Positions 32,821 through 39,948 of a stretch of 64,000 nucleotides of DNA are shown here, piece by piece (the first letter of the stretch is position 1; the number at the start of each line of letters is the position of its first letter). Both the position numbers and the translations under genes were made by a program. A model generated the notes under the pieces. That model ran no database searches, was not told where the DNA came from, and saw only the letters and a program-made list of their open reading frames with translations. Source of the DNA: Rhodopirellula europaea 6C (GTDB lineage Bacteria > Planctomycetota > Planctomycetia > Pirellulales > Pirellulaceae); NCBI RefSeq assembly GCF_000338295.1, contig NZ_ANMO01000257.1, forward strand, positions 1 through 64,000. The letters are read 5' to 3'.

Positions 32821-34833
32821 ATGGCTGCGACAACTAACAATTTTGACGGCCTTCGCGTGGCCGCTCTCGAGAGCCGACGGGCCGACGACATGACGCGGCT
32901 GATCTGCAAATTCGGTGGCGAAGCTTTCGTTAGCCCATCGATGCGAGAGGTGCCGATTGAGCCCAACCGGGCAGCAATTGACTTCGCCTATCGCATCATC
33001 ACCGGTGACATCGGCATCGTGATCTTGATGACCGGCGTTGGGTTTCGGTATCTGCTGAAAGCCACCGAGAAGCATGTCGAACAGCAACGACTGCTCGATG
33101 CTCTCAGCGATATCACGACGATCTGTCGCGGTCCGAAACCGGTGGCGGTGATGCGAGAGTTTGGGCTGAAGCCGACTCACCGTGTGCCCGAACCAAACAC
33201 TTGGCGTGAGTTGCTGCAAACGATCGACGCAGGGATTCCCGTTGCGAACCAGACAATCGGCATTCAGGAGTACGGCGTCAGCAACAAACAACTGATCGCC
33301 GGTTTGGAAGCTCGCGGCGCGATCGCCGAATCAGTCAAAGTCTACGGCTGGGAATTCCCCGAAGACACTCAGCCGCTGAAGGCGAACACGCTGGCGCTGG
33401 CCGCAGGCGAACGAGACATCTTGCTGGTTACCAGTGCTCATCAAGTCGTCAACATGCTCCGCATGGCCGAGGAGCTTGGTGTCAGCGATTCGCTTCGCGA
33501 CGGATTGTCCAAGACCGCGATCGTGTCGATCGGTCCCACGACCAGCGACATGTTGCGAGAACATGATCTGGCTATCGCGATGGAGCCATCGCACCCAAAG
33601 ATGGGGCACCTCGTCAGCGAGTCAGCTCGCGATGCCAAACGTTTGGTCGACGAAGTCCGTTCCAAATCGCCCACTTCTGGATCGTCTGCCTCTGTCACGG
33701 TGCGGGCGGATGATTCCAATCTCATTTCTGCTAGCAAGACACCTATGCCCGCCATCGACAATCACCCCTCCCAGTCCAGTTTGTTCATGCGTGCTTGTCG
33801 CGGTGAGCCCACGCCCCGCACACCGGTTTGGATGATGCGGCAGGCCGGTCGCTACATGCAGGAGTACCGCGAAGTTCGTTCGCAGCAAACGTTTTTGGAA
33901 CTTTGCGCCAATCCCAAGTTGTGCAGCGAAGTGATGTGCACCGCGGTCGAAAAGCTGGACGTCGACGCGGCGATCATCTTTTCGGACTTGTTGCCAATTT
34001 TGGTCCCGATGGGATTCGATTTGGAATTCGTCAAAGGTGACGGCCCAGTCATCCACAACCCGGTTCGTTCGGCGGCGGACGTGGATCGAGTCAAAGGCCT
34101 CGACAACCCGCAGGACCTTGGCTTCGTCTATGAGACGGTCAAGCAAACGCGAGCGGACCTGCCCGAAGGCATCCCGTTGATCGGATTCGCCGGTGCTCCG
34201 TTCACGTTGGCCAGTTACGCGATCGAAGGCGGTGGCAGCCGACAATACAGCAGCACGAAAGCTTTGATGCGTGCCGCCGATGGTGGCTGGGCCGCGCTGA
34301 TGGATCGTTTGACCGACGCGATCATCGTCTACTTGAACGAGCAGATCTCCGCGGGAGCCCAGTGTGTGCAATTGTTTGACAGTTGGGCTGGTTGTTTGTC
34401 GCCAGGCGACTACCGCGAATTCGTGTTGCCATGGATGAAACGCATCTTGGAAGGCGTGACTCCCGGCGTGCCCTTGATCAACTTTGCAACCGGCAATCCG
34501 GAGTTGCTTCCTCTGCTGCGAGGCGATCGCCGCACGGTGGTGGGAGTCGATTGGCGGATCGAACTGGATGTGGCTTGGAAACGCGTCGGGCATGACATCT
34601 CCGTTCAAGGCAACTTGGACCCGTCGGTGTTGCTGACCGATGCCAAGACCATCCGCGCGGCTGTGCAAGATGTTTTGGACAAGGCCGGCGGTCGACCCGG
34701 ACACATCTTCAATCTCGGTCATGGCGTGCTGCAACAAACTCCGGTTGAAAATGCCATTGAGTTGGTCAAAGCCGTGAAAGAACTTTCGGTGCGAGATGAT
34801 TTCTCAGCCGAGGATGGTGGAATGGATTCGTGA
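32821..34833 (+). CDS. hemE: Fused uroporphyrinogen-III synthase (HemD) - uroporphyrinogen decarboxylase (HemE)
   Basis: 670 residues. Residues ~1-290 look like HemD: FDGLRVAALESRRADDMTRL, FAYRIITGDIGIVILMTGVG, and the late SIGPTTSDMLREHDLAIAME. A Ser/Ala-rich linker (~295-320) leads to a complete HemE: PVWMMRQAGRYMQEYREVRS with the conserved Arg and Asp-binding loop, DAAIIFSDLLPILVPMGFDL, GFAGAPFTLASYAIEGGGSR, LFDSWAGCLSPGDYREFVLP and GHIFNLGHGVLQQTP. The two activities are successive steps from hydroxymethylbilane to coproporphyrinogen III. The frame is continuous with no internal stop. Its TGA overlaps the GTG of the next gene (GTGA). HemE is certain; the HemD part rests on weaker motifs, as is normal for that fast-changing family. 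Confidence 0.88.
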   Translation: MAATTNNFDGLRVAALESRRADDMTRLICKFGGEAFVSPSMREVPIEPNRAAIDFAYRIITGDIGIVILMTGVGFRYLLKATEKHVEQQRLLDALSDITTICRGPKPVAVMREFGLKPTHRVPEPNTWRELLQTIDAGIPVANQTIGIQEYGVSNKQLIAGLEARGAIAESVKVYGWEFPEDTQPLKANTLALAAGERDILLVTSAHQVVNMLRMAEELGVSDSLRDGLSKTAIVSIGPTTSDMLREHDLAIAMEPSHPKMGHLVSESARDAKRLVDEVRSKSPTSGSSASVTVRADDSNLISASKTPMPAIDNHPSQSSLFMRACRGEPTPRTPVWMMRQAGRYMQEYREVRSQQTFLELCANPKLCSEVMCTAVEKLDVDAAIIFSDLLPILVPMGFDLEFVKGDGPVIHNPVRSAADVDRVKGLDNPQDLGFVYETVKQTRADLPEGIPLIGFAGAPFTLASYAIEGGGSRQYSSTKALMRAADGGWAALMDRLTDAIIVYLNEQISAGAQCVQLFDSWAGCLSPGDYREFVLPWMKRILEGVTPGVPLINFATGNPELLPLLRGDRRTVVGVDWRIELDVAWKRVGHDISVQGNLDPSVLLTDAKTIRAAVQDVLDKAGGRPGHIFNLGHGVLQQTPVENAIELVKAVKELSVRDDFSAEDGGMDS

Positions 34834-35879
34834 GCGAACCCTCTCGTGTTGTTTGCCCGTTGTGCCCGCTGCACTGCGACGATGTCGTGGTGAACACGGA
34901 CGGATCGGTTCAAGCAAACGGGTGCGAGATCGCTGAGTCCGCCGGTTCGTTGATGAACCAAGTGGCTCGCGCAGACGAGGCGACGTTGGCCCAGATCGCT
35001 GCCTGTGAGCAACCCATTCGCGTGATCACTTCGGGCGTGGATCTGGTTGCGGCCCGCCAATTGGTCCAGTGGCAATCCGACGGTGCGATCGAAGTTGAAA
35101 TCGAAACGGATCCTTCGGTCCAGGCCATTGGAACGGTCACACGTCGTGATGGAATTGTTGCGGCGACGCTGTCCGAAGTCGTCACGCATGCCGATTTGGT
35201 TTGGTTGATCGGCGAAGTCGATCCGGCTTGGCCTCGTTTGGAAGAGAAGCTGCGTCTGGAGTCCGCGGGTTCCGGTGCAACGATTGGCAAACGACAGTTG
35301 AAGCGTTGGGAGCGATGGACCGCCGATTTCGCTGGTCGGATGCATCACGCGATCGAGCACCCGGAGGCGAACGAAGAAGGTTCCGAGTTTCAAGCGCGGG
35401 CCAACCATTTTCGTGATAGCCAGTACGCGGCGATCGTGATCGGTCCCGGAGCGTTTGACGCGGACGAAGCGGAGATGACCGCCGCGATGGTGGCGCGAAT
35501 CATCCGCCGCCGCAACGAGTTGGCTCGGTGTGTTGGCGTGACCTTGGATCCCGCCGCGACGCTGCGAAGCGTTCATGCATGGCGGACTAATGAATCGCTT
35601 GTGCCGATGATGTCTGATTCAGAGATCGATTCCGCTCCGGTGATTCGTTTGGTGGGGATTGGCCATCGAACGTCCGGCGATCGTTCGGTCGATTTGCAAA
35701 TTGGCGGGCATGACCCTGGGGTGGAACTTGCCAAAGCGTTCTTGCCCGCGAGTCCTTGGACAAACTCCATGGTCATCCGAGGCGACGGATCCGTGACCTT
35801 GCCACTTCAAGAGCCAGTCGCTCTGTCTGTCGAGTCCCCCACCGCCATCGAGCAACTCAAAAAGGTGCTTCGAGAGTAG
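34830..35879 (+). CDS. Formylmethanofuran dehydrogenase subunit B-like protein (FhcB-like)
   Basis: 349 residues from a GTG overlapping the hemDE stop. The N-terminal VCPLCPLHCDDVVVNTDG resembles the CxxCxxxC-DD start of FwdB/FmdB and of FhcB, the formyltransferase/hydrolase subunit of the tetrahydromethanopterin C1 pathway known in planctomycetes and methylotrophs. Later ADLVWLIGEVDPAWPRLEEK and the end MVIRGDGSVTLPLQEPV also fit a molybdopterin-oxidoreductase-like fold shortened relative to FwdB. In FhcB the fold is not thought to carry molybdenum. No other C1 gene is nearby. The last codons are CGA GAG TAG, where GAGTAG is part of the flanking repeat. Confidence 0.55.
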   Translation: MSEPSRVVCPLCPLHCDDVVVNTDGSVQANGCEIAESAGSLMNQVARADEATLAQIAACEQPIRVITSGVDLVAARQLVQWQSDGAIEVEIETDPSVQAIGTVTRRDGIVAATLSEVVTHADLVWLIGEVDPAWPRLEEKLRLESAGSGATIGKRQLKRWERWTADFAGRMHHAIEHPEANEEGSEFQARANHFRDSQYAAIVIGPGAFDADEAEMTAAMVARIIRRRNELARCVGVTLDPAATLRSVHAWRTNESLVPMMSDSEIDSAPVIRLVGIGHRTSGDRSVDLQIGGHDPGVELAKAFLPASPWTNSMVIRGDGSVTLPLQEPVALSVESPTAIEQLKKVLRE

Positions 35880-36018
35880 AACAGTTGTCCCCAACTGTTC
35901 CGCCTCGCAAGGTTCACTACGAGGTTTGTTTCGAACTGTTTGGGCTTGGAATGGGTGGGCCGGACGCTGGGATGTTGGGCCTCGCACACGGAACATTTGG
36001 GGACAAATGTTCTACTCT
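35873..36018 (+). repeat. RAYT-associated repeat, copy A
   Basis: 146 bp. It begins AGAGTAGAACAGTTGTCC and ends GGGGACAAATGTTCTACTCT. Each end is a hairpin: GAACAGTTG / CAACTGTTC around a short loop on the left and GAACATTTG / CAAATGTTC around GGGGA on the right. The two termini are inverted repeats of each other (AGAGTAGAAC / GTTCTACTCT). The middle, with CGGACGCTGG, is shared with copies B and C. The left edge supplies the TAG of the FhcB-like gene. Confidence 0.9.
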
Positions 36019-36024
36019 GAGTTG

Positions 36025-36167
36025 GTAGAACAGTTGTCCTCAACTGTTCCGCCTCGCAAGGTTCACTGCGAGGTTTGATTCGAACTGTTTGAGTTTGGAA
36101 TGGGTGGGCCGGACGCTGGAGTGTTGGGCTTCGCACACGGAACATTTGGGGACAAATGTTCTACTCT
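36025..36167 (+). repeat. RAYT-associated repeat, copy B
   Basis: 143 bp in the same orientation as copy A, separated from it by six bases (GAGTTG). It starts GTAGAACAGTTGTCC and ends TGTTCTACTCT. It differs from A at scattered positions only. Its right edge contains the stop codon of the RAYT gene read on the minus strand. Confidence 0.9.
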
Positions 36168-36880
36168 GGGGGATTCGAATTCGTACGCTCCCAGTACAAA
36201 AACTCGCCTGGACGCAGGTTGGCTTTGGCTGGGTTGTCGAAAATGTATTGCTGCAAATAGCGGAACTGTTCGGGACTGCGGATGATGTGATCGAATGGCT
36301 CCGGTTGCCAGAATGGTCCGGAGGTTCCCAAGGCTTGGTTGATTTGGCGGGCTGAGTAACGCATCCAGCTTTGGCTGACGACACTGAGGTTTGATTCTGG
36401 ATCGAACTGCACGATGGCATGGACGTGATTGGGCATCACCACCAATCGATCCAGTTCATACTTGGTTCCCCTATGGAATAGCAAAGTTTCTCCCACGATC
36501 TTGGCGATCTCAGGATCGCGAAGCACGCAAGCTCCATGGCACGCGTCGAGTGATCGATGGAAGAGTTGGTCGGATCGTTTTTGGAACTCGCTGCGTTGAT
36601 TGGGAGCAAGTTGCTCCATCATTCTGTCGTGAGTCATCAGATGACGAGAGACGGTTGATTGAGCGAGGCCAATCGGCAGGTCACGTATGCGCAACCAGTC
36701 TTCGAGTTCACGCTGCCAGCGTTGAACCACTTCGGCTGGCATCGAATCCGCCGTCCGGAATGTGACGAAGATCGCAGCCCCCGGTTGAAACCAGTGAGGG
36801 AGGTTCCGCTCGCTCACGAGAAGCTCTGCACAGGGATCAAAGCTTTGAAAAACCGGCTGTGGCTCATCTTGGTTCATCAA
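36161..36880 (-). CDS. REP-associated tyrosine transposase (RAYT, IS200/IS605-like Y1 family)
   Basis: 239 residues. The Y1 HUH signature is VVMPNHVHAIVQF (His152 and His154) and the catalytic Tyr is probably Tyr212 in RYLQQYIFDNPAKA, the normal RAYT spacing. PGAAIFVTFRTADS near residue 35 is the usual N-terminal strand. Such enzymes cut and join single-stranded REP/BIME hairpins and are usually single-copy and vertically kept. Here the gene is bracketed by direct copies B (at its 3' end) and C (70 bp before its 5' end) of a two-hairpin repeat, the expected substrate. Its last codons are CCA GAG TAG, the TAG lying in the copy B terminus. The gene is intact. Confidence 0.9.
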   Translation of the reverse strand: MMNQDEPQPVFQSFDPCAELLVSERNLPHWFQPGAAIFVTFRTADSMPAEVVQRWQRELEDWLRIRDLPIGLAQSTVSRHLMTHDRMMEQLAPNQRSEFQKRSDQLFHRSLDACHGACVLRDPEIAKIVGETLLFHRGTKYELDRLVVMPNHVHAIVQFDPESNLSVVSQSWMRYSARQINQALGTSGPFWQPEPFDHIIRSPEQFRYLQQYIFDNPAKANLRPGEFLYWERTNSNPPE

Positions 36881-36949
36881 CGCAGTTTAGCGAACGAGGC
36901 GTTCGCCAAGGTGGATTCGGGAACGCATTCTCTGAAAAACGAGTTCCCC

Positions 36950-37095
36950 AGAGTAGAATAGTTGTCCTCAACTGTTCCGCCTCGCAAGGTTTGCTGCGAG
37001 GTTGGTTTCGAACTGTTTGAGTTTGGAATGGGTGGGCCGGACGCTGGAATGTTGGGCCTCGCACACGGAACATTTGGGGACAAATGTTCTACTCT
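36950..37095 (+). repeat. RAYT-associated repeat, copy C
   Basis: 146 bp, same orientation as A and B, with the left hairpin slightly changed (GAATAGTTG instead of GAACAGTTG). Its right terminus holds the TAG of the kinase gene on the minus strand. It lies between the kinase stop and the RAYT start. Confidence 0.9.
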
Positions 37096-39878
37096 GGTGC
37101 CGCGCCGCTTTCGGATCGCTGTTTGAGGTCGTTTAGCATGGCGTGCCAGAAGTCTTTGTTGTCGTCGGTTGATTGTTGGTACATCGACAGATTTGGCAAT
37201 GACTTGACCAGACGCTCGAGTCGATCGTGGGCCTGTTTGGGTTGTTCGACGTGAGTGGTGTAGACGGATGCCAGTCCTTCCTGGAGACGTTGGCGAAGAA
37301 ACGTCAGCGGACGAAGCCATTCGGCGTTCTGGCTGGCTTGGTATTGGCGATCCATTTCTTGGAAGCTTCGGTCGAGATGAAAGGCGATCAGGGAAGGAGC
37401 CTCCGGATCGATCGTCGCTAAGCCTTGGACCACGTCGTTGAAAGACGAACCGTCCATCGAGTACCAATTGAAGCGAGGATGGGCCAGCGTTTCCGCTGCG
37501 AACTCAATCGGGAACTGAACACGCCCTTCCCTTCGCATCTCGGTGGCGGCGAGATAGAGCTCGGTGGGCAAAATCCAATCCGGTGGATTGGGGTTGGTGT
37601 GGGCCTGGGGGCCACCACCGAAACCGCCCATTGAAAACCCGTAAACCGCGTTGGGATCGGAGTAGTCCCATTTGGTCTGCCCTGTCGCGGGATCGACCTC
37701 TCTTCGTTCGTATTTGGCGACGGCATCATTGACCTGCTCTTCGACATAGTCGGCAATCCAATCTGGAGCGGCAATATGCGGGCCGCTGTCCTGAAGGATC
37801 CGAAGGGCTGTTGCCCAAGCCATTTCCCGACTGGCACTCGCTTCTTTGGCGGCATTCCAGGTCTCATCGCTGACCTGAGAGGACAGCTTCCGCAGTTCTT
37901 CGGACGCTGTGCCGAGTCGGATGAGAAGTCGTTCAACCTTGGCTCTGTCTTCCTGTCTTTCAGCGGATTTTGCGAAGTACGTCGGGGCGGTCTCTCGTTG
38001 CTTGAGATAGTCGGTGTTGGCATCCATTCCGGATACGTACTGGCCCGTCACGTATTGGTTCAGAAGCAAAATGGTGGCGGATTTTGATCTCTCGTTTCCG
38101 TGGGCCAGGTATTCTCCAAGCGGCTCCAGCCCGGGAGTTGGTAGGAAGTGGGGGTAGACTTCCGTGAGATAGCCCATGAATCGCGGGTCGGAGGGGCCTG
38201 TCACGTTGAACACATCGCTGTGTTGATTCGGAGGTCGTTCAACCAGGATCGTTCCGTGTTCACTCGCACGCGCGAGTGTTAGCTTCGCAACTTCAGCTCG
38301 ACGGGGAGAGTTGCGAGAGAGTCGTTCCGCAGCGCGCATTGCCTGTCCAACCGAATCAATTTGCTGCTCGTTTTGAAGGATTCCAAGCCAAGCATCCAGA
38401 TTCTTGCCGTGGTAGACGATTCCGTTTGTTGGGTCCGCTACAACTGGTTCGGATTGTTCTGCAACACTTTGTGCAAGAGCCACTGACCTTGGCTCACCGT
38501 CGTCCTCCTCCACCGCAACCTTGGTGTCTTTGCCGTCTGTGGTCACCGTCACCAGACCCTTGTCGGTTTTGATTTGAATCACGACCGTTGCGAGCAAGAC
38601 GGCTGCCGCGAACCATCCCAGCGGACCCATCCATGCGGTCCAGGTGTGTTTGCCGTTGCCCGGTGGCGGCGAAGCGGGATTCGTTGCCAGTGGGAGCGAT
38701 GGTGTGATTGGTGCATCGGATGCAGGTGTCGATTCCGCTCGCTTGAGCAACGCTTTTAAGTTGGCTTCGCCGGACCAGGTCGCAAGTCGCTCGGCAACGA
38801 TTGATCCGCTGGGACGCTGGTCGGGTTGCCGGTGCATCATTTGACCGACGAACGATTCCAATTCTGTTTCGACCGACGGTTGAAAACTGCTCAGCGGAAG
38901 CGGAGTCGATCGATTGGACTCGCCCGTGATCGCCAACACTCGTGCCGCCAGGCCGCCTTCGTTTGCATGCGGCCAACGGCCTGAGATCAGACGGTACAGG
39001 GTCGCGCCGAGCGAATAGATGTCCGACGCCGGTTGGACTTTTCGGCTGTCGAGCAACTGTTCGGGCGACATCGCAGGCAACGTACCCATCAGGTGTCCCA
39101 CCGTTGTGAGTCGGTCGTCCGTTGCTAGCGGATCGTCGCCCGCCAGGACCAAACCCAGGTCCAATAGTTTGACGGTTCCGTCTCGCGTGAGCATCAAGTT
39201 CGACGGCTTCACATCGCGGTGGATCAATCCCGTTTCATGCACGTGCATCAATGCCACGGCGGACTGGCGAGCGATCTCGCAGGCGTCCGCGACCGGCAAT
39301 GATCCCAGTCGATGAGCGATCTTGCCGACGTCCATGCCGTCCAAGTATTCCATCACCAAGTAGTGCCAACCAGAATGAGTTCCCGCATCGGTCGCACGGA
39401 CGATTCCTGGATGTTCCAACGACGCGACGGTTGTCATTTCTCGATCGAAACGATCCAACCAACCTGGTTCCATCACTCGGTGAGGCGGCAGCAACTTGAT
39501 CGCACATTGCCGTTTCAGTCGGTTGTGGCGAGCCAAGCACACCATCCCCATGCCGCCCTGCCCGAGCTGCCCCAGAATCTCGTACGGACCGATTTGGTCG
39601 ATGGGAAGATCTGCGGCAGCATGGGGAACCGGCACGTTTGCGGTCATCAATTGAGCGACCGCGAATTGGCAGGCGGACTCAGCCAGCACGGAATCTTCCT
39701 CTGAGTCCGCATTGGCAATTGGAGACAACGCGTCCCACTTTTCCGGGATGCGTGACTGGCATTGCTCGCACTGATCAACATGCTTGGATGCTGAATCGAA
39801 CTCGTTACTGGAGAGTTGTCCGTCGAGCAAGCGGTTCAATTCTTCGATGCTCAGACAATCGGTGCTGGTGGCAATCAT
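37089..39878 (-). CDS. Membrane Ser/Thr protein kinase with N-terminal zinc-finger-like segment
   Basis: 929 residues from the ATG at 39878; a GTG at 39947, one base after the sigma factor stop, is also possible. Near residue 33 HVDQCEQCQ has the H-x3-C-x2-C spacing of anti-sigma zinc fingers. The kinase domain spans roughly 97-365: GQGGMGMV glycine loop, Lys128 in CAIKLL, HRDVKPSNLM (catalytic Asp222), DLGL in place of DFG, and SPEQ. A transmembrane segment follows near 410-435 (GWFAAAVLLATVVIQI), so the ~490-residue C-terminal part, of unknown fold, is probably outside the cytoplasm. It is co-transcribed with an ECF sigma factor, a known planctomycete pairing. The final codons CCA GAG TAG are supplied by repeat C. 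Confidence 0.88.
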   Translation of the reverse strand: MIATSTDCLSIEELNRLLDGQLSSNEFDSASKHVDQCEQCQSRIPEKWDALSPIANADSEEDSVLAESACQFAVAQLMTANVPVPHAAADLPIDQIGPYEILGQLGQGGMGMVCLARHNRLKRQCAIKLLPPHRVMEPGWLDRFDREMTTVASLEHPGIVRATDAGTHSGWHYLVMEYLDGMDVGKIAHRLGSLPVADACEIARQSAVALMHVHETGLIHRDVKPSNLMLTRDGTVKLLDLGLVLAGDDPLATDDRLTTVGHLMGTLPAMSPEQLLDSRKVQPASDIYSLGATLYRLISGRWPHANEGGLAARVLAITGESNRSTPLPLSSFQPSVETELESFVGQMMHRQPDQRPSGSIVAERLATWSGEANLKALLKRAESTPASDAPITPSLPLATNPASPPPGNGKHTWTAWMGPLGWFAAAVLLATVVIQIKTDKGLVTVTTDGKDTKVAVEEDDGEPRSVALAQSVAEQSEPVVADPTNGIVYHGKNLDAWLGILQNEQQIDSVGQAMRAAERLSRNSPRRAEVAKLTLARASEHGTILVERPPNQHSDVFNVTGPSDPRFMGYLTEVYPHFLPTPGLEPLGEYLAHGNERSKSATILLLNQYVTGQYVSGMDANTDYLKQRETAPTYFAKSAERQEDRAKVERLLIRLGTASEELRKLSSQVSDETWNAAKEASASREMAWATALRILQDSGPHIAAPDWIADYVEEQVNDAVAKYERREVDPATGQTKWDYSDPNAVYGFSMGGFGGGPQAHTNPNPPDWILPTELYLAATEMRREGRVQFPIEFAAETLAHPRFNWYSMDGSSFNDVVQGLATIDPEAPSLIAFHLDRSFQEMDRQYQASQNAEWLRPLTFLRQRLQEGLASVYTTHVEQPKQAHDRLERLVKSLPNLSMYQQSTDDNKDFWHAMLNDLKQRSESGAAPE

Positions 39879-39948
39879 GACGGGCTTTCGGTGCGAGGGA
39901 TCGATTGGTTGACCACACAACGCTTGGATTGGGCGGCGATTGGACACC

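Follow-up and report, generated by a model that had tools for sequence, protein, structure and literature searches.

The closest described systems are the REPtrons, in which a RAYT (TnpA-REP) gene is flanked by palindromes that carry a GTAG tag and form head-to-head dimers; several families of GTAG REPs have been named for R. baltica (PMC3733652; De Gregorio/Di Nocera group, 2013). Both this arrangement and REP families of R. baltica were therefore already known. In the available text of that paper we found neither the present locus, nor its age, nor its displacement by a nuclease gene, and no open-literature paper was found for Rhodopirellula with REP-associated transposases or repetitive extragenic palindromes, in a search that took in few of the subscription papers. 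According to the available parts of PMC8266576, TnpA-REPs whose REPs are perfect palindromes need certain bases in the loop, with a more variable requirement for GTAG, and the loop of the E. coli REP has a structural role only. The group 3 REPtrons of that study, from S. maltophilia (Sm) and Marinomonas (Mb), have a perfect palindrome after GTAG, as here; their recognition involves loop bases, and cleavage occurs at CT and, in Mb, also at CA. They differ from the present locus in the loop (GCT or TTTA, compared with TCC(Y) here) and in the enzyme, the protein here being 239 aa in length and having an extended N-terminal region. The E. coli REPs are bulged (PMC8266576), whereas those here are perfect palindromes; the E. 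coli TnpA-REP (4er8) has the HUH-Tyr core in common with our protein and is its best match in both sequence and fold.

Two further studies, as far as their available text goes, bear on the repeats. The REPINs of P. fluorescens SBW25 (PMC3116915) are, as here, units of an inverted REP pair and a spacer that form tandem arrays, but SBW25 has 71 bp between its 16-mers where we find 114-120 nt between palindrome starts, and by comparison with SBW25 the genome studied here has only 35 palindromes. RAYTs have been described as single-copy and vertically inherited, with local REPIN amplification probably by host replication (PMC8049555). The old, mostly inherited palindromes described below fit that account and depart from it in one respect: in E. 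coli, RAYT-bearing genomes hold more REPINs, whereas here the numbers are similar or larger in genomes without the RAYT.

The window, by which we mean the whole 64,000-nt stretch of Rhodopirellula europaea 6C DNA that was analysed, comes from a genome of 7.19 Mb in 273 contigs (G000). The locus of interest is, in all likelihood, a REPtron consisting of a domesticated RAYT (TnpA-REP) and its cognate REP palindromes as head-to-head dimers, with the following features:

34830..35879, plus strand: FmdB-like flanking gene (weak TIGR03129 match, no Pfam match), whose divergence was used to date the locus
35873..36019, plus strand: REP dimer A (a REPIN/BIME unit), AGA-GTAG-palindrome, spacer of about 90 nt, palindrome-CTAC-TCT, with GTAG outward on both strands
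35876..35900, plus strand: left palindrome of A, whose TAG at 35877-35879 terminates the upstream FmdB-like ORF
36016..36024, no strand: A/B junction of 9 nt, from the CTAC end of A to the GTAG start of B, tail-to-tail
36025..36168, plus strand: REP dimer B, in tandem with A (147-nt copy at 36022-36168, tag from 36025)
36161..36880, minus strand: RAYT (TnpA-REP) gene, 239 aa, start TTG or an ATG one codon in, NHVH at residues 151-154, catalytic tyrosine Y212, stop codon formed by the TAG of B's right tag
36950..37096, plus strand: REP dimer C, located 5' of the RAYT
37068..37092, minus strand: right palindrome of C, whose TAG at 37089-37091 terminates the protein-kinase ORF
37089..39947, minus strand: flanking Ser/Thr protein kinase gene

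The first-pass annotation had described three repeats of about 145 bp in one orientation, and a repeat search of the window recovered all three to within a few bases of where they had been placed: A, B and C form a single family of 147 nt each, 93-94% identical to the first copy and all oriented the same way. Each contains two mutually inverted palindromes, built as GTAG-AACANTTG-TCCN-CAANTGTT-C, with GTAG outward and about 90 nt between them. The period from A to B is 149 bp, as follows from the 9-nt tail-to-tail junction, and the palindromes alternate along A and B in a BIME-like manner. The terminal hairpins had been read as inverted copies of one another; inverted they are, but they are not exact copies, the two ends of A being 93% and those of C 88% complementary, with B arranged likewise. 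Nor are the repeats larger than classic REPs, as had been thought, since each is a pair of ordinary-size REP palindromes plus the spacer. A, B and C each fold into a single long hairpin (z scores of -7.8, -6.9 and -8.5; 0 of 200 shuffles as good), as does a related copy elsewhere in the genome (C235, see below); one dispersed dimer gave two separate hairpins (z -3.3).

The gene between B and C was annotated from the start as a complete Y1 HUH transposase, and this reading holds: the ORF is intact, with both NHVH and YIFDNP present, and NHVH and Y212 are invariant in all 12 aligned sequences. Pfam Y1_Tnp matches at 25.8 bits (cut-off 23), and the best NCBIfam model, NF047646 (REP-associated transposase), at 63.3 bits, under an 80-bit cut-off that belongs to that one model and does not define the family; we classed the protein as RAYT-like on its anatomy. 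Its motifs (NHVH, WQ and YIFDNP) are near those of TnpA-Y1 subclasses 2.7 ([ND]HVH, WQ and YI[LR][NQ]NP) and 2.4 of PMC6006769 and identical to neither. Searching a 12-sequence profile against the PDB gave E. coli TnpA-REP 4er8 as the best match (E 5.5e-9), followed by an IS200/IS605-type transposase (2.7e-3). The same structure ranked first when the AlphaFold model (mean pLDDT 84) was compared by Foldseek (E 7.4e-6, TM-scores 0.39/0.55), with a high rmsd of 11.7 over a long alignment.

Further copies of the repeat had been sought as a check on the first reading, and they were found. The palindrome GTAGAACANTTGTCCNCAANTGTTC, allowing up to three mismatches, occurs 35 times in G000, with no match to a backward-read control pattern; six copies lie within 1.3 kb at the RAYT locus and 29 elsewhere. 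It is present in 12 of the 25 genomes searched (G000 included), all of one genus, and has 0 copies in each of the 12 genomes outside the genus. The counts for G000 to G012, in order, are 35, 15, 126, 2, 46, 33, 0, 1, 4, 137, 1, 42 and 3, so that some congeneric genomes hold more than G000. The full 147-bp unit has four matches in G000, the three at the RAYT and one at C235:90471 that is 87% identical. What the dispersed copies have in common is the palindrome and, mostly, an AGA ahead of the tag; their spacers, judged by eye, are mostly unlike that of the RAYT locus. CAGA precedes the tag in 22/31 copies in G000, 20/30 in G005 and 27/37 in G004, and the CA step there could be a candidate cleavage site by analogy with the Marinomonas enzyme, as far as that is described in PMC8266576. 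A partner palindrome follows 114-120 nt on for 19/35 copies in G000, 16/33 in G005 and 16/46 in G004, and for 123/3120 random positions. In some relatives, copies lie in the same orientation at gene-like spacing; a reading of these as integron attC sites was set aside, the tag, the dimer form and the link to the RAYT explaining them.

This population is old. Counting one matching flank as enough, 21 of 26 dispersed sites in G000 are common to G004 or G005, which indicates that the palindromes are mostly inherited and that recent copying in G000 is not evident. The C235 copy, which alone among the dispersed copies matches over the full length, was considered as a recent transposition and rejected, since it is also present in G004 and so is not new in G000. 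The comparison of empty sites in relatives that the first-pass annotation had proposed gave no clean junction at the six dispersed sites compared (by BLAST against stretches of G004, G005, G009 and G002, plus G011 for two, with a base-by-base comparison added for five); sites were shared, rearranged or altered over hundreds of bases. We also considered a model of decay after RAYT loss (available text of PMC3686654), from which we expected fewer exact palindromes where the gene has gone, and rejected it: the exact share is similar with the RAYT at the site (15/35 in G000, 37/126 in G002) and without it (12/33 in G005, 20/46 in G004, 42/137 in G009, 9/42 in G011).

The RAYT itself appears to have been inherited in place. 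G002 has an 87%-identical RAYT at the same site, adjoined by twelve palindromes, with five tandem units (149-bp period) and one beyond the gene where G000 has two tandem units. Array units from the same genome are 92% alike, and units from different genomes 84%, which suggests homogenisation. Between G000 and G002, dS is 0.511 for the RAYT, 0.506 for the FmdB-like gene and 0.483 for HemE; the kinase end, at 0.411, is below the RAYT value. A dS equal to that of two flanking genes, together with the shared site, argues for vertical inheritance without mobile copies, and by the time of the common ancestor of G000 and G002 the RAYT was most likely already at this site. From FmdB and HemE distances rather than a species tree, that ancestor would also be the ancestor of G004, G005 and G009. 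At window 32821-34833, a single ORF of 670 aa combines a uroporphyrinogen-III synthase domain (HemD) with a uroporphyrinogen decarboxylase domain (HemE).

The interval between the FmdB-like and kinase genes (window 35880-37090) holds the REPtron in G000 and G002 and a PDDEXK_3 gene in G004, G005, G009 and G011. Genes of this kind go by the nickname GxxExxY. The other seven of the 13 genomes of the genus (G001, G003, G006, G007, G008, G010 and G012) have no match to the kinase within 1.5 kb of FmdB, which confines the comparison of the site to the six above. Between G009 and G011, the PDDEXK_3 gene has a dS of 0.214 and FmdB 1.55, and the kinase end of G011 has a dS to G000 of 0.288 against 1.30 for FmdB; such low values indicate that a tract with the nuclease gene moved between species. 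The simplest reading is that the RAYT was lost in the lineages that now have the nuclease gene, although ancestral polymorphism, or two cassettes that formerly lay side by side, may account for the pattern instead. No RAYT of more than 47% identity was found in G004, G005, G009 or G011, and no relative of this RAYT in G009 at E <= 1e-10. G009 does have 13 matches to a broader REP-transposase model (the surroundings of five were inspected), and it is possible that another RAYT acts there in trans. An inverted-repeat family, GAACACTAATC...GATTAGTGTTC, lies beside the PDDEXK_3 gene in all four genomes (loci L122, L120, L121 and L124 for G004, G005, G009 and G011).

We compared hairpins beside RAYT-like genes more widely. 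In 31 RAYT-like loci from whole genomes (our two and 29 others, from 46 matches), this palindrome lies beside the gene at three: our own, that of G002 (87% protein identity) and that of G008 (64%), where the form is one base shorter. In 14 Y1 gene neighbourhoods from G000, G009, G005, G002 and G004 (one, C113, also among the 31), none lies near the gene; at one locus (L146) the nearest is about 4 kb from it. With 80 of 160 further relatives, the set comprised 111 loci. We searched these for tagged hairpins, defined as a GT[AG]G tag and, directly after it, a perfect stem of at least 7 with a loop of 3-5 nt; the loop sequence was outside the search criteria. There were 207 in 73,260 nt beside the gene (a nominal length of 660 per locus, even where a contig ends) and 32 in 507,555 nt lying over 1 kb from it, a density about 45-fold higher near the gene; the 207 are non-independent, since single loci contribute several, some loci are nearly identical and offset reading counted a few hairpins double. 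At least one tagged perfect hairpin was found at 60/111 loci and at least two at 45/111, with none near the gene at 51/111. That the repeats are the REPs of this enzyme, as first proposed, is thus well supported by these comparisons, GTAG-tagged hairpins adjoining the gene in G002, in G008 and at many distant RAYTs. Neither outcome that the first-pass annotation had named as refuting, an absence of further copies or copies unconnected with the RAYT in every relative, was observed.

Loops starting with TCC make up 138 of the 207 hairpins near the gene and 9 of the 32 far from it. At 32 of the 45 loci with at least two hairpins, the majority class is TCC-like (TCT included), with 51 different inner stems. 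This combination of varied stems and a frequent TCC loop fits the recognition of tag plus loop described in the available parts of PMC8266576. On a tree of 45 proteins, loop class changes 9 times, compared with a shuffle mean of 11.6 (1 of 200 shuffles as low), a modest clustering; GCC is clustered (3 changes, shuffles 4.9) and TCC modestly so (7, shuffles 10.6), and TTC is scattered, its 5 changes for 5 rows being no better than shuffles. The tree took 45 of the 60 hairpin-bearing loci, CATG loci being left out, and the protein set excluded five loci whose alignment is interrupted by a stop. Partial or full duplication of RAYT genes was seen at two loci with tagged hairpins around: G008:C144:253300-254279 (L064) has a partial second copy, and G001:C12:211455-212948 (L086) has two copies 864 bp apart.

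At the RAYT locus, the FmdB-like, RAYT and kinase ORFs each take their stop codon from the TAG within a tag. The principle is already known: GTAG termini often supply TAG stops to flanking ORFs (available text of PMC3733652), and REPs directly follow rayt stop codons or are found very near them (available text of PMC2817692). The RAYT's own TAG stop lies inside the tag of a perfect hairpin in 10/15 RAYTs at least 48% identical to ours, 2/25 at 40-48% and 3/67 below that, a count that needs a perfect stem (and so misses L179) and takes in long read-through frames at some distant loci. Away from the locus, no other tagged palindrome tested in G000 has an open frame of 120 codons running into the tag, and frames 0, 1 and 2 run into it in 8, 4 and 7 of 93 cases (G000, G005 and G004 together). 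On these frame counts we rejected the idea that REP tags serve generally as stop codons; such use is special here to the RAYT locus.

We weighed three other explanations. That the repeats are mere chance neighbours of the gene has next to no probability: 29 of 35 palindromes do lie far from it, but six are packed within 1.3 kb, the G002 orthologue has its twelve, G008 has related shorter ones, and hairpins are some 45 times denser beside RAYT-like genes, so that the orthologous loci refute it. A Y1 transposase between hairpin-bearing repeats looks like an insertion sequence, and the locus might be an autonomous IS200/IS605-like element moving as a gene with its ends; the first-pass annotation had similarly suggested that the gene and repeats could be a movable unit. 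We regard this as very improbable and largely refuted. There is no near-identical second copy, the sole other match to this RAYT in G000 having 35% identity (a broad REP-transposase model gives four other matches there, none close); the gene occupies this site in G002 too, with a dS equal to that of two neighbours; and the protein is closer to 4er8 than to IS200/IS605 transposases.

A more serious alternative, though still an unlikely one, is that this RAYT has ceased to drive the REPs, whose dimers would persist and form arrays by host replication and recombination, or through a RAYT in trans, and act as gene-end elements, with the gene kept for another job or surviving as a relic. Genomes without the RAYT at the site indeed have similar or larger palindrome numbers and similar exact shares, and, in counts uncorrected for chance, a tagged palindrome follows the stop of a frame of 120 or more codons within 60 nt in 15/28 cases in G000, 13/28 in G005 and 7/37 in G004. 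Against it stand the dN/dS of 0.13 for the RAYT (G000 against G002), which denotes purifying selection, the higher density of tagged hairpins next to RAYTs in different phyla, and loop types that modestly track the protein tree.

If the locus is a REPtron, as we favour, its RAYT would bind one REP strand while it is single-stranded, recognising GTAG together with a small loop of TCC(Y), with the stem sequence hardly mattering, and would cleave near the tag via Tyr212. Joining of such ends may occasionally copy or rearrange REP dimers, and the tandem arrays beside the gene would grow, shrink and homogenise, probably largely by host replication and recombination, while the RAYT gene itself is passed on vertically in place. 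Binding, cleavage and copying by this protein are inferred. Excision of the REP whose tag is the RAYT's own stop would alter the protein. We tentatively extend this, at somewhat less than even odds, to a large RAYT clade of the PVC group that reads GTAG and a TCC loop and ignores the stem (stems drift while enzyme and loop stay locked), in whose close members the tag is the RAYT stop, and whose REPtron was displaced in several species by a horizontally moving nuclease cassette, with the REPs persisting and still forming arrays.

The general question on which the locus bears is how REPs spread and whether they need a RAYT. Its value lies in genomes with and without the gene, together with the prediction of tag-plus-loop reading: G000, which has the RAYT, and G005, which lacks it at the site, form a natural comparison (dS about 0.15; 35 and 33 palindromes), and the varied stem and frequent TCC loop make a sharp prediction of what this RAYT clade reads.

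Several side observations concern the dispersed palindromes. G009, which is without this RAYT, has regular palindrome arrays at C15:302431-303444, C26:3843-5019, C23:128621-129647, C51:10094-11374 and C48:48944-50547, with periods of about 247, 288, 334, 157 and 206 bp, respectively. At L132:7205-7345 (G000:C11:42205), a REP dimer marks a rearrangement breakpoint: the two segments that meet there adjoin each other in G000, G004 and G005, and in G009, G002 and G011 they are separated, with their relative orientation reversed. Other repeats adjoin the REPs: one next to a REP dimer, reaching 285 bp (L136:6544-6828), with many matches in G002 and G009 and few in G005 and G004, and another dispersed one of about 137 bp (L134:15352-15488), for which more than 10 matches were listed in each of G005, G009, G004 and G002.
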